DNA of 42,389 nt from Thiomicrospira sp. (GTDB taxonomy: Bacteria > Pseudomonadota > Gammaproteobacteria > Thiomicrospirales > Thiomicrospiraceae): NCBI RefSeq assembly GCF_014859555.1, contig NZ_JACUTY010000014.1, positions 1-42,389 of the forward strand, read 5' to 3'. The notes under the pieces are model-generated. The model had not been told where the DNA came from and made no database searches. It saw nothing but the letters and a program-made list of their open reading frames with translations. Position 1 is the stretch's first letter, and each line of letters starts with the position of its first letter. Of this stretch, positions 3,309-39,134 are shown piece by piece. The position numbers and the translations under genes are program-made.

Positions 3309-3318
3309 CTGCATGACA

Positions 3319-3421
3319 TCTCTCGGGGTGCGTTTGTGTGTATTTTGTTTCGCGAACGCTGAGAAGGTCTTAGACCTAACCCGCTGAACTTGAACTGGTT
3401 AGAACCAGCGTAGGGAAGAGA
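3319..3421 (+). ncRNA. TPP riboswitch (thi box)
   Basis: The conserved aptamer elements are present in order: TCTCGGGGTGC at the 5' side of P1/P2, GCTGAGA at about 3358-3364, CCCGCTGAACTTGA at about 3390-3403, the CTGGTTAGAACCAG stem-loop, and the closing CGTAGGGAAGAGA. It binds thiamine pyrophosphate and turns down downstream thiamine biosynthesis genes. The aptamer is complete. Unusually, 335 bases separate it from the thiC start, with a palindromic repeat in between, so the switching part cannot be simple occlusion by an adjacent Shine-Dalgarno. No clear terminator hairpin with a U-run was found just after the aptamer. Confidence 0.95.
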
Positions 3422-3586
3422 ATCATCTTAATCGGCGTGCTTTATTTCCATCCTTCGCCGTTTCTGAATGCCTCCGGTGCCTACGTGTTCTATGACCAGG
3501 CCTGGTGGTTGCAAATCCCCATCAATCCTGATCATTCAACACGACTCAACCGACTTTTCACGCTGTTTTTCTGCCTTTGAATTTAA

Positions 3587-5649: not shown

Positions 5650-6696
5650 ATGAACGATTTGTCCGCCGTTAAAAACGTGGGCATCGCGGGAGCAGGCCTG
5701 GTGGGTCGCGTGCTGGCGTTAAATTTGATTCGACGCGGCATTCAAGTGACTTTATTTGAACGTGATTCATCTGGCTCTGCGCCCAATGCCGCCGGTTATA
5801 CCGCCGCCGGTATGCTTTCGCCTTATGCCGAGTTGGAGTTGATGGATGCCGAGTTATTTCAACTCGGCGTGCGCTCGATTGAACTTTGGCCAGGCCTAGT
5901 GGATTGGATGGCGGAACAAGGCTGTGCGGTGGATTTTCAACATCGTGGCAGTTTGGTGTTAGCGCATCATAATGACCGCGCCGACTTGCAACACTTTATG
6001 CGTCAATTGATGGATAAATTGCCCAGCGGTTATCAGGTTGAACAACTAAACAACACACGTTTAACTGAGCTAGAACCCGAATTAATGCATCACCACCAGG
6101 CCTGGTGGTTGCCAAATGAAGGTCAGGTAGATTCAACCCAGTTTTTTCAGCAAAGCGAACGCCTGCTGAAAAACCATGTGTTAGTGGAGTGGTGCGAAAA
6201 CACCGAGGTGAAGCAACTGTCGTCTCGCCAAATGAATGGCCAAGTTTTTGACTGGGTGTTCGATTGCCGAGGCTTAGGTGCCAAGCCAGATATTAAAGAT
6301 TTACGCGGTGTACGGGGTGAGGTGTTTTGGTTAGATGCGCCCGAAGTAAAACTCACGCGGCCGGTACGTTTAATGCACCCGCGTTATCGTATTTATATTG
6401 TGCCGCGCGCGAATGGACGTTATGTGATTGGTGCGAGTGAAATCGAAAGTGAAGACCGCAGCCCGATGTCGGTGCGCTCCAGCTTGGAATTATTGTCGGC
6501 GGCTTACAGTGTTCATCCGGGGTTTGCTGAAGCACGCATCGTTAATCAACTCACCAATTGCCGCCCAGCCTTAGGTGATAATTTACCGCGCATTGAACAA
6601 CTGGACGGTTTAACCCGCATCAATGGTTTATATCGCCACGGCTATTTATTCTCACCCGCGATAGTGGAAAAGGCCTTGGCTGATTTAAAGATTTAG
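5650..6696 (+). CDS. thiO: Glycine oxidase ThiO (FAD-dependent)
   Basis: 348-residue amine oxidase of the DAO family. The N-terminal dinucleotide-binding motif VGIAGAGLVGRVLALNLIRRG and the acidic end of the second strand (LFERD) bind FAD. YTAAGMLSPYAE and the C-terminal RINGLYRHGYLFSP are typical of ThiO. It oxidises glycine to the imine used by ThiG for the thiazole ring, the oxygen-dependent alternative to ThiH. No thiH is present in this window, which fits. It starts three bases after thiC. The HHQAWW and AGLVG stretches are encoded by copies of the CAGGCCTG palindrome. Confidence 0.95.
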   Translation: MNDLSAVKNVGIAGAGLVGRVLALNLIRRGIQVTLFERDSSGSAPNAAGYTAAGMLSPYAELELMDAELFQLGVRSIELWPGLVDWMAEQGCAVDFQHRGSLVLAHHNDRADLQHFMRQLMDKLPSGYQVEQLNNTRLTELEPELMHHHQAWWLPNEGQVDSTQFFQQSERLLKNHVLVEWCENTEVKQLSSRQMNGQVFDWVFDCRGLGAKPDIKDLRGVRGEVFWLDAPEVKLTRPVRLMHPRYRIYIVPRANGRYVIGASEIESEDRSPMSVRSSLELLSAAYSVHPGFAEARIVNQLTNCRPALGDNLPRIEQLDGLTRINGLYRHGYLFSPAIVEKALADLKI

Positions 6697-11552: not shown

Positions 11553-12413
11553 CTGAAAAGGCGCGCTGTAGTTTAATATCAAACCTAACAAAACCACCAG
11601 GCCTACCCAGTGGTTATGTTTAAAGGCTTTAAAACAAAGGGCTCGATCACGGTCTTTAATCAGCCATTGGTGATACACAAACAAGACCGCTACCAAAATC
11701 AAACTGACATAATAAATCGCATTAAGATCAAACAGCTTAGCCATTACCAACAACATGCCTAGCATGAGTATTTGCAACAAACCGATAATCAGGCGATCAT
11801 AATCACCAAATAGAATCGCGGTGGATTTAATGCCAACTTTTAAATCATCGGGTTTATCCGTCATGGCGTACATGGTGTCGTAAATTAATGTCCACAACAG
11901 TGTAATCGCAAACACCCACCAGGCCTGGTGGGGAACGGTATTTTGCACGGCGGCGAAACCCATTGGCACCGCCCAAGCAAACGCCAGCCCTAAAAACACT
12001 TGAGGCCAATGCGTAAATCGTTTGGTATAAGGATATAGCCCGGTCAAAAAAAGCGCCACAATCGCTAACATAATCGTGAGTGGATTAAGTAGCAAAACCA
12101 AACCAAACCCGACTAAACCCAACGCGGCAAATAATAATAACGCATCGCGTGGTTTAATTTCGCCGGTCGCCAAAGGGCGATCACAGGTTCGAGCCACGGC
12201 ACCGTCCCAATGACGGTCGGCGTAATCATTAATCACACAGCCAGCTGATCGAACTACAATTGCGCCTAGGATAAAGACCAAAAGCACCAGGCCTGGTGGT
12301 GTGCCTTCCGCCGCCAGCCATAAAGCCCACAGCGCCGGCCACAGCACTAAATAAATACCCACCGGCTTATTAAGCCGCATTAAATTTATATAGAGTTTAA
12401 TCTTCGAAAACAT
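11544..12413 (-). CDS. ubiA: 4-hydroxybenzoate polyprenyltransferase UbiA
   Basis: 289-residue membrane prenyltransferase that attaches the polyprenyl tail to 4-hydroxybenzoate in ubiquinone synthesis. The two aspartate-rich motifs are seen: NDYADRHWDGAVARTCDRP (NDxxDxxxD) and DTMYAMTDKPDD (DxxxDxxxD). About eight hydrophobic helices. The frame is open further upstream (to 12542), but ATG 12413 gives the normal length and N-terminus (MFSKIKLYINLMRLNKP). That start lies inside the 3' end of the preceding small gene (17-base overlap), which implies translational coupling. HQAWW and PPGLV segments are encoded by CAGGCCTG palindromes. Confidence 0.95.
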   Translation of the reverse strand: MFSKIKLYINLMRLNKPVGIYLVLWPALWALWLAAEGTPPGLVLLVFILGAIVVRSAGCVINDYADRHWDGAVARTCDRPLATGEIKPRDALLLFAALGLVGFGLVLLLNPLTIMLAIVALFLTGLYPYTKRFTHWPQVFLGLAFAWAVPMGFAAVQNTVPHQAWWVFAITLLWTLIYDTMYAMTDKPDDLKVGIKSTAILFGDYDRLIIGLLQILMLGMLLVMAKLFDLNAIYYVSLILVAVLFVYHQWLIKDRDRALCFKAFKHNHWVGLVVLLGLILNYSAPFQLL

Positions 12414-30524: not shown

Positions 30525-30637
30525 AGCAAACTCCTCAGGTTTCGCAACCCACCAGGCCTGATGGGTTTAATGTCATAATTCTATCATCCAAGCCGATTTA
30601 AGATCATTTACAATCATGTATTTTGGAGTCAATCACG

Positions 30638-30840: not shown

Positions 30841-30855
30841 GGGCACCTCGATTAA
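30841..30855. repeat. Solo end of the GGGCACCTCGATTAA element
   Basis: GGGCACCTCGATTAA, identical to the tip of the full element at 34896. The stop codon of the minus-strand gene (TAA, 30852-30854) is formed by its last bases. Confidence 0.6.
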
Positions 30856-31847: not shown

Positions 31848-31885
31848 GGGCACCTCGATTAACCTCTGGTTGATTCTGCGGGACT
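31848..31885. repeat. Solo right end of the GGGCACC element
   Basis: These 38 bases are an exact inverted match to 35120-35157, the right end of the full element. The match stops abruptly at 31885, and no other part of the element is nearby. It lies between the ferritin gene and its terminator. Confidence 0.8.
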
Positions 31886-34712: not shown

Positions 34713-34895
34713 GTTATGACGCGATTTTTGGCCCTGTGCTTGATGCGGACATTGTGAGCACAAGCCTTTTACGCAGGTTTGCAAACACAGGCGTTATATC
34801 GCATCACGACTTTGCGTATCCGAACAGTTCAGATCGGCCGCACAAAACACCCCAAGACGAAACAACTCAGCTAATTTTTGTTTGGAGAGTGATAG

Positions 34896-35157
34896 GGGCA
34901 CCTCGATTAACCCCTGATTTATTCTGGCAACGCCAAGTTTTTCAGATCAAGGCGTGAACCTGAAGGAATGTCTAGACCTTGCAAAGGTTCACAACGCAGA
35001 GCTGAGAAACTTGGCTAAGCCCCTGCGGGCGGGGCTTAAAGGTCACTTCTTCGTTGTTGTCCGCCTTGACCTTAGAATGACTAAGGTCGGCGACGCACGC
35101 CTAGAATAAGTGACCTTTAAGTCCCGCAGAATCAACCAGAGGTTAATCGAGGTGCCC
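34896..35157. mobile_element. Non-coding element with GGGCACC inverted ends (full copy 1)
   Basis: 262 bp with imperfect terminal inverted repeats (GGGCACCTCGATTAACC at the left, GGTTAATCGAGGTGCCC at the right) flanked by ATAG on both sides, a possible 4-bp target duplication. Inside are nested dyads: GCCAAGTTTTTCAG (34932-34945) with 35002-35015, GTGAACCT with AGGTTCAC, TAAGCCCC/GGGGCTTA (35016-35038), a perfect 14-bp pair CTTAAAGGTCACTT (35035-35048) with 35108-35121, and GACCTTAG/CTAAGGTC. No open frame for a transposase. MITE-like or a structured RNA element; a second full copy is at 38259-38532. The preceding 147 bases (34740-34895) hold nothing recognisable. Confidence 0.75.
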
Positions 35158-35195
35158 ATAGGTTAATTAAGCTGTTTTGTTTATGCATGCTTGAG

Positions 35196-35654: not shown

Positions 35655-36020
35655 TTAGCTAAGCTGTTGAATCTGAATGTTAAAGTGTTTTAGGTTTATG
35701 GGTTTAGCTAAAAATCCATCCATACCCGCATGGCGACAGCGCTCCCGCTCTTCAACTGAGTCATTGCCTGTTAAGGCAACAATAGGGGTGTTAATACCCC
35801 CATCTCGTATTTGCTTGGTTGTTTCTAAGCCATCCATTAGTGGCATTTGAATATCCATTAGGATCAGGTCATAACAATGCAATTTGACCTGTTCTAACGC
35901 AGAAATACCACTACTAACGACATTTACATGATGGCCGACACTTTGTAAAATTTCACCTTGAATTTTACGCATCATCAACTTGTCATCGACCAAAAGTATT
36001 TTTAAAGAATCTCCAGTCAT
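35655..36020 (-). CDS. Single-domain response regulator (CheY-like receiver)
   Basis: 121 residues, receiver domain only. Acidic pocket D12/D13 in LLVDDK, phosphoacceptor D56 in LILMDIQMP, Thr in ALTGND and Lys in LAKPIN. No output domain. Its ATG overlaps the stop of the chemoreceptor gene (ATGA at 36017-36020), so the two are translated together. It probably takes phosphate from a kinase such as the hybrid kinase or HPt protein nearby, or serves as a phosphate sink; no cheA or cheW is in the window. Confidence 0.92.
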   Translation of the reverse strand: MTGDSLKILLVDDKLMMRKIQGEILQSVGHHVNVVSSGISALEQVKLHCYDLILMDIQMPLMDGLETTKQIRDGGINTPIVALTGNDSVEERERCRHAGMDGFLAKPINLKHFNIQIQQLS

Positions 36021-38212
36021 TTATTAGACTTGTCTTTTGAGCTCGACAACCCTATGTATTTATTACAATTTTGATCCGTTTCAGTTTTAAAATAAGACAT
36101 TGTTTCTCTTAAATGCTTCGCTTCTGAACTTAAGGTTTCGGCTGCAGCCGTGGTTTCCTCAACTAAGGCGGCATTCTGTTGGGTGACACCATCAATCTGC
36201 ACAATCGCTTGATGTACTTGATTAATACCTTCGCTTTGCTCTGCCGAGCTGTGAGCGATTTGGTTAATCATCTCGGCTACTTCTTCGACAGCGTGAGTAA
36301 TTCCATTTAAATTATCGCCCGATTTTTTAGCTAAACTAGTGCCTTTTTCTACTCTGCTGACCGTGTCTTCAATTAAATTACGGATGTCTTTTGCTGCTTC
36401 GGCAGACTTTTGCGCAAGTCCACGAACTTCACCAGCTACAACCGCAAATCCACGTCCGTGATCACCTGCACGGGCCGCTTCAACAGCCGCATTTAATGCT
36501 AGTAAATTGGTTTGAAATGCAATACTGTCAATTAAAGTTACAATATCCGAAATTTGATGACTAGACCGTTGAATCGCTGACATTGCGTCAACCGTTTCTT
36601 GCATGACTTTTGTACTATCAATTGAGTCTGACTTAACTTTATAAGCTAACTCTGCTACCTTGCGAGAATGTTCACTATTGTTTTGAATCGCAGAGGCCAT
36701 CTCATTCATAGTTGCACTAGTTTGCTCGAGTGCTGCCGCTTGTGATTGCACACGCTCAGACAAATCTGATGCCCCTTGGGATACTTGAGACGAAGCTTCG
36801 CTTACCACTATCGCAGCATCTATAGCAATATTGACTATCTCCTTCACTTTTTGAGTGGAGTAGTTAATCGCATTTTTTAAATCATGAAGTTGGCCTTTAA
36901 ATACGTCTTTGGGCAATTCATGGGTCAAATCGCCTGCCGCTTGCGCCTCTACCACTTCGCTAATTGCGTTAACCGCTTCTGCAACCCTTTGCATAGAACT
37001 GTTGATATTATCTTTCATTAACAACAATACACCCTCGGCATCCGCTGTTACTCGACTATCAAACGAGCCTTCATTCATCATTTCCATTACTTCTATAATG
37101 TTTTGGGTAATGTTGGCTTCTTCCGTACGATCCAGCCACTCAACAACATATCCTAATCTTTCTTTTTTATGCAAAATGGGCACGACCGTTAATCTTAATA
37201 CCAGACCTGCTACCTTGAGCTCACCGGTCCAAGGCTCAACCATTTGAGCCACCATTTTACGTTGATGTGCTCGATCTTTATGGAACACATCCATGTTTGA
37301 CCCGACCACCTCACTGGCTTTAAAGTTTATTAAAGCCTGTTGTAGCTTATGTTCGTTTTTAGCAAACATCTGCTCTAAAGACTTGTTCATGCTTTTAATA
37401 TTAAAATCAGCATCCGCAACCATTATATTTGTACTTGCTGCATTTAAAGCCGTTGACATAACTTGAGTGGCTTTTAATTCATCATAATTACGTGCGGCTC
37501 GCTCAGCAACTCTTGAACGAATCATATTGAGGGCAAAGCCCCAGTCAGAATTTGATTTAATTGGTTTCTTGAAATGGCCGTTTGAGAGATCTTCAATCCC
37601 ACGTCGCAAAATTAATGGAATTCTGTGGTTTTGAAGTTGATTAAAGATAAGCCAGACTAGGCCCACTAAAAATACAAAAGTACTTATTATAGATACCATG
37701 CTTACACTAGCTTGAATCAGTAAGCCAATAAAGCCCATTGCGGCCAAGCCCAAAGGCACTAAAGTTTTTAGCCACTTTGTTATTTTAGACTCTGCGGTCG
37801 TCCAAGGAAATGATTTATGACCTGCCTTAACATCGGCATACAACCTTTGAGCAAATTGCTTTTGTTCCTGGGTTGCCGGGTAACGCACCGATAAATAACC
37901 TGTTATTTGACCGTTTTCAATTATTGGGCTAGCATTAGCCGCGACCCAATAATAATCGCCATTTTTTCGTTTATTTTTAACCATTCCAAACCATGGTCTG
38001 CCGGCTTGTATAGTTTGCCAGAAGTCCTTAAACGCCTCTTTAGGCATATCTTCATGGCGCAATATATTATGTGGTTTGCCAACTAACTCTTTATCTGAAT
38101 AGCCCGAAGCCTCTCGAAAGCCCTCATTATAATCAACGATATTACCCTTTAAATCAGACGTGGATAAAATCACCATGTCTGGTGAAAGTTGGAACTCTTG
38201 ACCCTGTTGCAT
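36017..38212 (-). CDS. Aer-like chemoreceptor with two PAS domains
   Basis: 731 residues. PAS 1 (about residues 10-110) closely follows E. coli Aer: PHNILRHEDMPKEAF then NKRKNGDYYWVAANASPI, including the Arg-His-Asp of the FAD site, so redox or oxygen sensing is likely. Two close membrane helices (about 150-195), a HAMP-like linker, a second PAS-like region (about 255-370), a further HAMP, then the methyl-accepting signalling domain with the hairpin tip IDSIAFQTNLLALNAAVEAARAG. No C-terminal CheR-binding pentapeptide. GGGAG precedes the ATG. It overlaps a receiver gene downstream. Confidence 0.95.
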   Translation of the reverse strand: MQQGQEFQLSPDMVILSTSDLKGNIVDYNEGFREASGYSDKELVGKPHNILRHEDMPKEAFKDFWQTIQAGRPWFGMVKNKRKNGDYYWVAANASPIIENGQITGYLSVRYPATQEQKQFAQRLYADVKAGHKSFPWTTAESKITKWLKTLVPLGLAAMGFIGLLIQASVSMVSIISTFVFLVGLVWLIFNQLQNHRIPLILRRGIEDLSNGHFKKPIKSNSDWGFALNMIRSRVAERAARNYDELKATQVMSTALNAASTNIMVADADFNIKSMNKSLEQMFAKNEHKLQQALINFKASEVVGSNMDVFHKDRAHQRKMVAQMVEPWTGELKVAGLVLRLTVVPILHKKERLGYVVEWLDRTEEANITQNIIEVMEMMNEGSFDSRVTADAEGVLLLMKDNINSSMQRVAEAVNAISEVVEAQAAGDLTHELPKDVFKGQLHDLKNAINYSTQKVKEIVNIAIDAAIVVSEASSQVSQGASDLSERVQSQAAALEQTSATMNEMASAIQNNSEHSRKVAELAYKVKSDSIDSTKVMQETVDAMSAIQRSSHQISDIVTLIDSIAFQTNLLALNAAVEAARAGDHGRGFAVVAGEVRGLAQKSAEAAKDIRNLIEDTVSRVEKGTSLAKKSGDNLNGITHAVEEVAEMINQIAHSSAEQSEGINQVHQAIVQIDGVTQQNAALVEETTAAAETLSSEAKHLRETMSYFKTETDQNCNKYIGLSSSKDKSNK

Positions 38213-38258: not shown

Positions 38259-38532
38259 GGGCGGCTCTATTAACCTCAGTTTGATTATGACCACGCGAAG
38301 TATGTTGACACGTTCCGTACAGATCAAGGCGTGATCCTGAAAGAATGTCTAGACCTTGCAAAGCTTCACAACACCGAGAGGCAAAGCTTGGCTAAGCCCT
38401 TCGGGCGTGACTTACCGGCCACTTACTCGCTGCTGTTCGCCTTGACCTTAGAATGACTAAGCTCGGCGACGCACGCCTAGAATATGTAGTCTGTAGTCAC
38501 GCAGAACTTAATTTGGGTTAATCGAGGTGCCC
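38259..38532. mobile_element. Non-coding element with GGGCACC inverted ends (full copy 2)
   Basis: 274 bp from GGGCGGCTCTATTAACC to GGTTAATCGAGGTGCCC. The core is strongly conserved with copy 1: CAGATCAAGGCGTGA, GAATGTCTAGACCTTGCAAAG, CGCCTTGACCTTAGAATGAC and GCGACGCACGCCTAGAAT are shared, while the outer arms differ. No clear target duplication. It lies upstream of the chemoreceptor gene. Further degenerate ends follow at 38638-38654 and 38745-38762; the rest of 38533-38686 holds nothing recognisable. Confidence 0.75.
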
Positions 38533-38686
38533 TAATATATAAGGCGTAAATGATACTTTATCAAAACTAACCAAAAACACATAACTATTTAATTAGTGGC
38601 ACCTTAGGCTATTTGCAAACTAAGGTTGGAATTTAAAGGTTAATCGAGATGCTCAACTCTTAATACTCTATTAGGCGACAATTATC

Positions 38687-38744: not shown

Positions 38745-38762
38745 GGGTTAATCTAGGTGCCC
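38745..38762. repeat. Solo end of the GGGCACC element in the HPt leader
   Basis: GGGTTAATCTAGGTGCCC, one base different from the right end of the full elements. A more degenerate end, GGTTAATCGAGATGCTC, lies at 38638-38654. Confidence 0.55.
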
Positions 38763-38801: not shown

Positions 38802-39134
38802 ATGCCGTCAGTTATAGATAATAGTGTGTTAAAACAGTTGGTTGAATCAATTGGTAAGGACTCAACTTGTTTTGCTATTGAAGCCTTTGAAGAAGAATTA
38901 GCCGAGTTTAATTGTAAGGTTAACTGGAATGATACGGCTTCTCTAGCAACACTGGCCCATTCTCTAAAAGGAAGCGCCCGTGTTGTAGGTGCTCTGGCAT
39001 TAACAGCTGTCTTTGAAAGTATTGAATATAGGGCAAAAGATAATCAAACCCTTGACGCAGTCTATTGCATAAATCAAATTGAGCAGTTTTCAGGCGAAAG
39101 TTTACAACTTCTTAAAGCCGCTCTAGAGGCTTAA
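38802..39134 (+). CDS. Stand-alone HPt phosphotransfer protein
   Basis: 110-residue histidine phosphotransfer domain. The phosphorylated histidine is H53 in LAHSLKGSARVVGA, with the usual helix that follows. It shuttles phosphate between receiver domains. It is convergent with the hybrid histidine kinase gene (18 bases between stops), which has its own internal HPt, so this free HPt may connect that kinase to the single receiver upstream or to other regulators (inference). AGAGG lies before the ATG. Confidence 0.93.
   Translation: MPSVIDNSVLKQLVESIGKDSTCFAIEAFEEELAEFNCKVNWNDTASLATLAHSLKGSARVVGALALTAVFESIEYRAKDNQTLDAVYCINQIEQFSGESLQLLKAALEA

Follow-up and report, generated by a model that had tools for sequence, protein, structure and literature searches.

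Our analysis shows that the repeat present in two full copies in the window (the whole stretch of 42,389 nucleotides of Thiomicrospira sp. DNA that was analysed) is built like a MITE but is not derived from a single insertion sequence (IS). Its core, which recurs across the phylum, contains the same hairpin module twice, in opposite orientations, while its terminal inverted repeats (TIRs) have been exchanged among unrelated IS types. That we are dealing with a non-autonomous MITE-type element, moved in trans by DDE-type IS transposases, is well supported, and the pattern of base changes supports the view that selection acts on the single-stranded fold of the core, as RNA or as single-stranded DNA (ssDNA). 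A sequence-only reading of the same DNA had proposed either a MITE family or a repeat encoding a structured RNA; the first half of that proposal stands, on the strength of TIRs, target duplications and near-identical copies elsewhere, whereas the RNA nature does not stand as such, ssDNA being possible as well. The twin-hairpin core, its phylum-wide occurrence and the exchange of its ends go beyond what that reading contained.

The features of the element in the window are collected in Table 1. The two full copies, their inverted ends and the ATAG on either side of copy 1, all noted from the letters in the earlier reading, were confirmed in the sequence, and so was the lack of an open frame in copy 1, where the longest stop-to-stop frame has 63 codons and no ORF of at least 80 aa was found. 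The folding proposed for copy 1 was borne out too, and the fold is very stable (-139.5 kcal/mol versus -75 +/- 4.6 for dinucleotide shuffles, z -14), and the perfect 14-bp stem with its halves 60 bases apart proved to be the outer stem of the second hairpin (TTAAAGGTCACTT / AAGTGACCTTTAA). Copy 2 has 81% identity to copy 1 over the aligned bases; its left end has decayed to GGGCGGCTCTATTAACC, its flanks are TTAT/TAAT and its fold reaches z -3.4 relative to shuffles. The changes from copy to copy respect base pairs, and the selection on the fold suspected earlier is now backed by both covariation and a strand-specific wobble bias (see below). Solo ends extending over just 15-40 bp are frequent, in the window (30841, 31848, 38638, 38746) and at many loci of its own genome, and are possibly the footprints of hairpin deletion.

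Table 1. Copies, parts and remnants of the element in the window.
Feature	Position	Strand	Remarks
Copy 1	34896-35157		262 bp; first bases GGGCACCTCGATTAACC, last bases their exact reverse complement
Target-site duplication ATAG, left flank of copy 1	34892-34895	no strand	same 4 bp on both sides
Left TIR of copy 1	34896-34921	+	17 bp perfect, imperfect from there to the core
Structured core of copy 1, ~210 nt	34922-35131	+	covariance model R1, 247.7 bits, copy 1 itself being in the R1 building set
Arm A hairpin module, motif CAAGGCG-stem-loop-stem-CACAACGC	34927-35017	+	R2 (built from distant arm A sequences only) 81 bits, E 2e-18; wobble bias
Small central hairpin, UNCG-type loop (GCCC-CTGC-GGGC)	35019-35030	+	fold; loops of distant elements
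Arm C hairpin module, an inverted second arm A module	35034-35125	-	R2 on the opposite strand, 46.8 bits, E 1e-9; reversed wobble bias
Right TIR of copy 1	35132-35157	-	
Target-site duplication ATAG, right flank of copy 1	35158-35161	no strand	
Copy 2, older diverged full-length element	38259-38532	+	274 bp; core 38303-38506; R1 117 bits, E 4e-30
Solo/degraded element end (GAGCATCTCGATTAACC)	38638-38654	-	
Solo/degraded element end (GGGCACCTAGATTAACC)	38746-38762	-	
Truncated element	31848-31885	+	right end, stops after ~38 bp
Solo TIR remnant	30841-30855	+	15 bp

The window has several other features. Genes for a methyl-accepting chemotaxis protein (MCP) with a PAS domain (36017-38212), a response regulator (35655-36020) and an Hpt protein (38802-39134) are clustered, and copy 2 separates the MCP gene from the divergently oriented Hpt gene, at a distance of 47 bp ahead of the MCP start. 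A TPP riboswitch occupies positions 3314-3433 of the plus strand (RF00059, 78.6 bits). The 16-bp palindrome CCACCAGGCCTGGTGG occurs at 15 sites in 42 kb with up to 2 mismatches, compared with 0.02 expected by shuffling (for example at 6093-6108, 11916-11931 and 30549-30564), and ACCAGGCCTGGT is recurrent at many loci of the window's relatives, also beside their IS ends. This iterated palindrome is unrelated to the twin-hairpin element.

The evidence for mobility comes from the window's own genome and those of its relatives. A search with the 17-bp end gave 123 matches (up to 3 mismatches) in the 2.1-Mb, 146-contig genome, versus 0 forward and 1 reverse for a reversed-pattern control, so that the further copies on which the earlier reading depended do exist; copy 1 itself is among the sequences found again, with 100% identity. 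The true number of full copies must be higher, since the assembly broke at collapsed copies, as seen from the many contigs that stop some 50 bp into an element. Shorter forms were also seen, either of about 150-160 bp with one hairpin or of 48-52 bp with little beyond the TIRs. When 192 sampled genomes were searched for the TIR pattern (up to 1 mismatch), it was found in several genera of the window's own family, the two matches outside it being single ends. Full-length elements in this family are nearly all 262-263 bp long and sit at different sites in relatives, and 16 of 31 are flanked by an exact 4-bp target duplication (0.18 expected). In one genome (G568), 12 of 19 copies have an exact 4-bp duplication and 14 of 19 have the IS5-type YTAR on both flanks. 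In the complete genome G183 there are 22 copies, each 262-263 bp long. Of these, 20 were examined: every one is flanked by TA, 17 on both sides and the others on one, and they are 99-100% identical where their lengths are equal, which indicates a recent burst. The TIRs, the target duplications and the many sites with nearly identical copies together identify a mobile element and, with multiple dispersed copies and no transposase gene of its own, it has features by which MITEs are recognised. Forms with arm A only (146 bp) or arm C only (165 bp) occur at several G568 sites and are 93-94% alike; single arms thus appear to be mobile too, and since short forms without the full core have also moved, the full core is not strictly needed for transposition.

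Some observations on individual copies belong here. Disruption of reading frames was considered as evidence of mobility in G183 and set aside as uninformative, because long chance frames span most junctions. At two G183 copies (L201 at 457 kb and L204 at 882 kb) the outer flanks are mutual reverse complements and have no TA duplication, as would result if recombination between the two copies had produced a chromosomal inversion. In another case (L005/L107, G000 contig C78: 11-311), the element directly adjoins the 3' end of a transposase frame of the IS4 family, and that frame continues into the element.

The core reaches well beyond the family of the window. Among the elements retrieved with a DNA pattern taken from the second hairpin, some combine this core with a different TIR, GGAACCTCTG(ATTGAATC/CACGAATC). 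R1, a covariance model of the ~210-nt core built from 16 elements, found this core in 68 of 369 gammaproteobacterial genomes (55 of 271 genera), with E-values down to 1e-34 outside the window's family, and in 24 of the 299 genomes of a phylum-wide sample, 14 of the 24 being from other classes; as 6-8 candidates were scored per genome, copy numbers from this search are minima, and its shortened calibration makes the E-values rough. In 27 of 29 distant elements, both arms carry the CAAGGCG and CAACGC motifs (up to 1 mismatch), and a GC-rich plasmid with unrelated 262-bp MITEs scored at most 14 bits. Together with the fact that most genomes had no match, these results argue that the distant cores are not chance palindromes. 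No Rfam family matched at gathering or relaxed E-value thresholds (best 27.9 bits versus a threshold of 41.2, E 0.11). Among plasmids and phages the core was absent save for one Azotobacter chroococcum plasmid, and two exact patterns found no element in viral contigs. A copy in a Methyloprofundus MAG (L148, JACUUF010000175.1) was dropped as a case of transfer to another order; its contig may be mis-binned, since ACCAGGCCTGGT, a palindrome characteristic of the window's relatives, occurs on it three times.

The ends of these elements behave quite differently from the core. We compared the TIRs of 41 elements, taking the stretch that abuts the core (median 29 bp, range 26-42, including adjoining flank letters). 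Left and right TIRs within one element have 90% identity, whereas the median identity of TIR tips between elements is 0.38, equal to that of shuffled sequences, and single-linkage clustering gave 18 groups. One of these is the classical IS5 end GGAAGGTGCGAATAAG of G568, which is that of E. coli IS5; another, CTAAGACAAACGATA.. (G183), goes with TA duplications, and further groups begin with GGAACCTCTGATCAATT.., TAGTGTCCTGTC.., AGTACTCCTTCAAGG.., TATACCCAAGTGACTTC.. and GAGCCTGTCTCATAA... IS5-type ends with a 4-bp YTAR duplication are found in some clades, such as G568, but not in all members, others having TA and unrelated TIRs. Since different duplication lengths imply different transposases, the occurrence of one core between 26-30-bp TIRs of many unrelated types, with differing duplications, indicates that ends from various transposon families have been taken up by the core time and again. 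This weighs heavily on the simplest account of the element, namely that it is an ordinary IS5-derived MITE, the internal-deletion product of one IS, whose palindromic filler is of no consequence. The IS5-type TIR and 4-bp duplication of the window's own clade are what this account expects. A deletion product should nevertheless keep its parent's ends and lose its filler, whereas here the filler is kept over 55 genera and the ends change completely; the loops and bulges preserved between covarying stems also speak against inconsequential filler, and we regard this account as improbable.

The search for a transposase with matching ends, foreseen in the sequence-only reading, had a mixed outcome. 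The fragmented assembly of the window's own genome has three PF01609 matches, none of them with the element TIR. A near match came from another genome of the same genus (G006), where TIRs GGGAACCTCGAATAACC, one mismatch away from the TIR of that genome's own element, bound an IS whose transposase is of the IS5 family (NF033581, E 8e-81). All 44 ends in G183 belong to its 22 elements, leaving no IS with the element TIR, and none of the IS630-, IS4- and IS5-type transposases inspected there is bounded by element ends. G568 has no TIR pair at IS length and only a degraded PF01609 remnant, located elsewhere. For the TAGTGTCC ends (G083, G087, G547, G621, G486), the search for an autonomous IS returned only elements or remnants. 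Where copies are most numerous, in the complete genomes examined, the search brought to light no active transposase whose ends match.

What is constant in the element is the architecture of its core, in which two copies of one ~92-nt hairpin face in opposite directions on either side of a small hairpin. This was seen most directly with R2, a covariance model built from arm A of 24 distant elements only: nearly all elements, among them ones not used in training, match it at arm A and, on the opposite strand, at arm C. Scores on arm C are typically 35-75 bits, compared with at most 29 bits (four cases) for arm A on the wrong strand. Each arm, read on its own strand, has the form CAAGGCG-stem-loop-stem-CAACGC. 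Alignment A1 was folded with RNAalifold with its insert-bearing rows left out. In the family alignment, both sides have changed in 26 of the 75 core pairs, versus 14.1 +/- 1.8 for shuffled alignments and 9 or fewer for slid structures; with the TIR stem included, 37 of 101 pairs are double-changed versus 16.9 +/- 2.3 when shuffled. For 30 elements from the class set, in an alignment fitted to the model structure, there are 597 double-changed cells versus 160 +/- 10, and 90% of cells pair versus 63%. Loops and bulges are kept between the covarying stems.

The wobble pairs are the most informative, because what pairs as G-U on one strand becomes an A-C mismatch when the other strand is read. In arm A the mismatches are 52 G-U and 6 A-C, with 25 elements leaning to the former and 0 to the latter (p 6e-8). 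Written on the strand of arm A, arm C has the reverse, 28 G-U and 74 A-C (2 elements to 21, p 7e-5), a bias that is not significant when counted by pair column (10 to 16, p 0.33). The TIR stem, which served as a control, shows no bias (G-U 39, A-C 46; 10 elements to 14, p 0.54). The orientation of distant copies was set by R1, which could produce one overall bias but neither opposite biases in the two arms nor unbiased TIRs. The opposite wobble biases thus indicate that each arm matters as a single strand, and that the two do so on opposite strands.

A cruciform in double-stranded DNA, or the 'correction' of one half of a palindrome from the other, would be symmetric with respect to the strands and is disfavoured by this bias. 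Long near-perfect stems are known substrates of template-switch correction, and the covariation might accordingly be purely mutational, arising when template switching in imperfect palindromes copies one hairpin arm onto the other; the near identity of left and right TIRs within an element would fit such a process. Since it should treat both strands alike, the opposite biases of arms A and C and the unbiased TIR stem are hard to reconcile with it, as are the conserved mismatches and bulges within the arms, which remain uncorrected, and we consider this explanation very improbable indeed.

The choice between RNA and ssDNA is a finer one. On the strand of arm A the central loop is UNCG in 20 of the 24 distant elements in which it could be read, with all four letters at N, which suggests RNA. 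In DNA, however, the complementary loop, CGNA, is stable. For that reason, and because orientation depended in part on the loop, we do not rest a claim of RNA on it. In its fullest form, such a claim would make the core a structured RNA (a regulator, an mRNA stabiliser or a processing signal) that benefits the host, with mobility merely its means of spread. G-U tolerance and UNCG-type loops fit RNA, one orthologous copy diverges at 5 of 263 positions, below most of the surrounding bins, and known bacterial MITEs give rise to sRNAs or to RNase III/E substrates (PMC5896051, PMC2229807). We nonetheless think a host-serving RNA rather unlikely, given the varied places at which copies are found, the opposite functional strands of the two arms, the lack of a promoter-like site around copy 1 and the lack of an Rfam match at gathering scores.

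If the single strand is DNA, one might think of an HUH (Y1) enzyme such as RAYT, acting on the inverted hairpins as in REPINs or BIMEs, with the TIRs incidental. The single-strand constraint agrees with this, and inverted pairs of one hairpin have here multiplied without a matching IS, much like REPINs that are mobilised by a stand-alone RAYT (PMC2817692). TIRs and fixed duplications of 2 or 4 bp point instead to cutting and insertion of the DDE type; moreover, the arms are ~92 nt long rather than 20-40, and no tagging tetranucleotide was recognised. We therefore give this idea little credence.

The explanation that we prefer, and hold to be highly probable, is that of a non-autonomous MITE with a conserved inverted hairpin pair, exchangeable ends and arms constrained as single strands, whose hairpin would be recognised in the cell. 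With the inverted layout, either strand would present one correctly oriented hairpin, whatever the direction of insertion or transcription. The hairpin might be exposed in read-through RNA from neighbouring genes or as ssDNA at the replication fork, and something in the cell would recognise it, whereby the element persists or spreads. New ends would let the element use whichever transposase is present. As both ends of an element always match, a swap presumably replaces one arm of the terminal palindrome, which is then copied to the other side. More tentatively, and with a little less than even confidence, we propose that these elements form a phylum-wide class whose identity lies in the strand-specific inverted hairpin pair and which swaps TIRs to hitch-hike on the transposon family at hand, a bacterial counterpart of SINEs.

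Bacterial MITEs are usually viewed as dead-end deletion products of one IS, with conserved ends and meaningless filler. Here the roles are reversed: many sets of ends have come and gone around a structured core, which makes the core the part that endures and the ends its exchangeable tools. This opens testable questions on the joint replacement of both ends, on binders of the hairpin and on effects on RNA or replication. On a practical level, the covariance models make it possible to annotate this repeat family, which Rfam lacks, and the element explains some assembly breaks.

Eukaryotic CORE-SINEs have a conserved central domain and exchangeable ends with which they parasitise different partners; they are retroelements copied via RNA, unlike the element described here, and the likeness is one of analogy only. 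We found no description of a core with exchangeable ends of this kind in the open-access literature, and the bacterial systems known to us each share part of its features. Like our element, MITEPsy1 of Pseudomonas syringae (PMC3189936), compared by description only, is a short IS5-type non-autonomous element with GGAA.. TIRs and a 4-nt CTAG/YTAA duplication, and its transposition has been shown; it differs in being 100 nt long and tied to one IS (ISPsy2), with no two-arm core reported. The Tn3-derived TIMEs (PMC4133298) also measure 262 bp, have a stable fold and short conserved core stretches, and are moved in trans, but they have Tn3-type 38-bp ends and 5-bp duplications. Homology to TIMEs was considered and rejected, since the two copies on pZM1P1 gave only background scores with R1 and R2, and the equal length is coincidental. 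MITEAba12 of the Moraxellaceae (PMC6382973) is likewise an IS-derived non-autonomous element found across a bacterial family, but its TIRs are conserved and its centre variable, the opposite of what we see. QMITE1 of Coxiella burnetii (PMC5896051), again compared by description only, is a transcribed MITE, long and palindromic, whose ends have been described as variable and whose core as conserved; unlike the present element it is 300-400 bp long, has 2-3-bp repeats and is reported to be unique to Coxiella burnetii. REPINs and BIMEs with their RAYT (PMC2817692) resemble it in being an inverted pair of one hairpin, non-autonomous, and multiplied without an autonomous copy. The REPs that compose them are short (20-40 nt) and have neither IS-type TIRs nor target duplications, whereas both are present here, around arms of ~92 nt.
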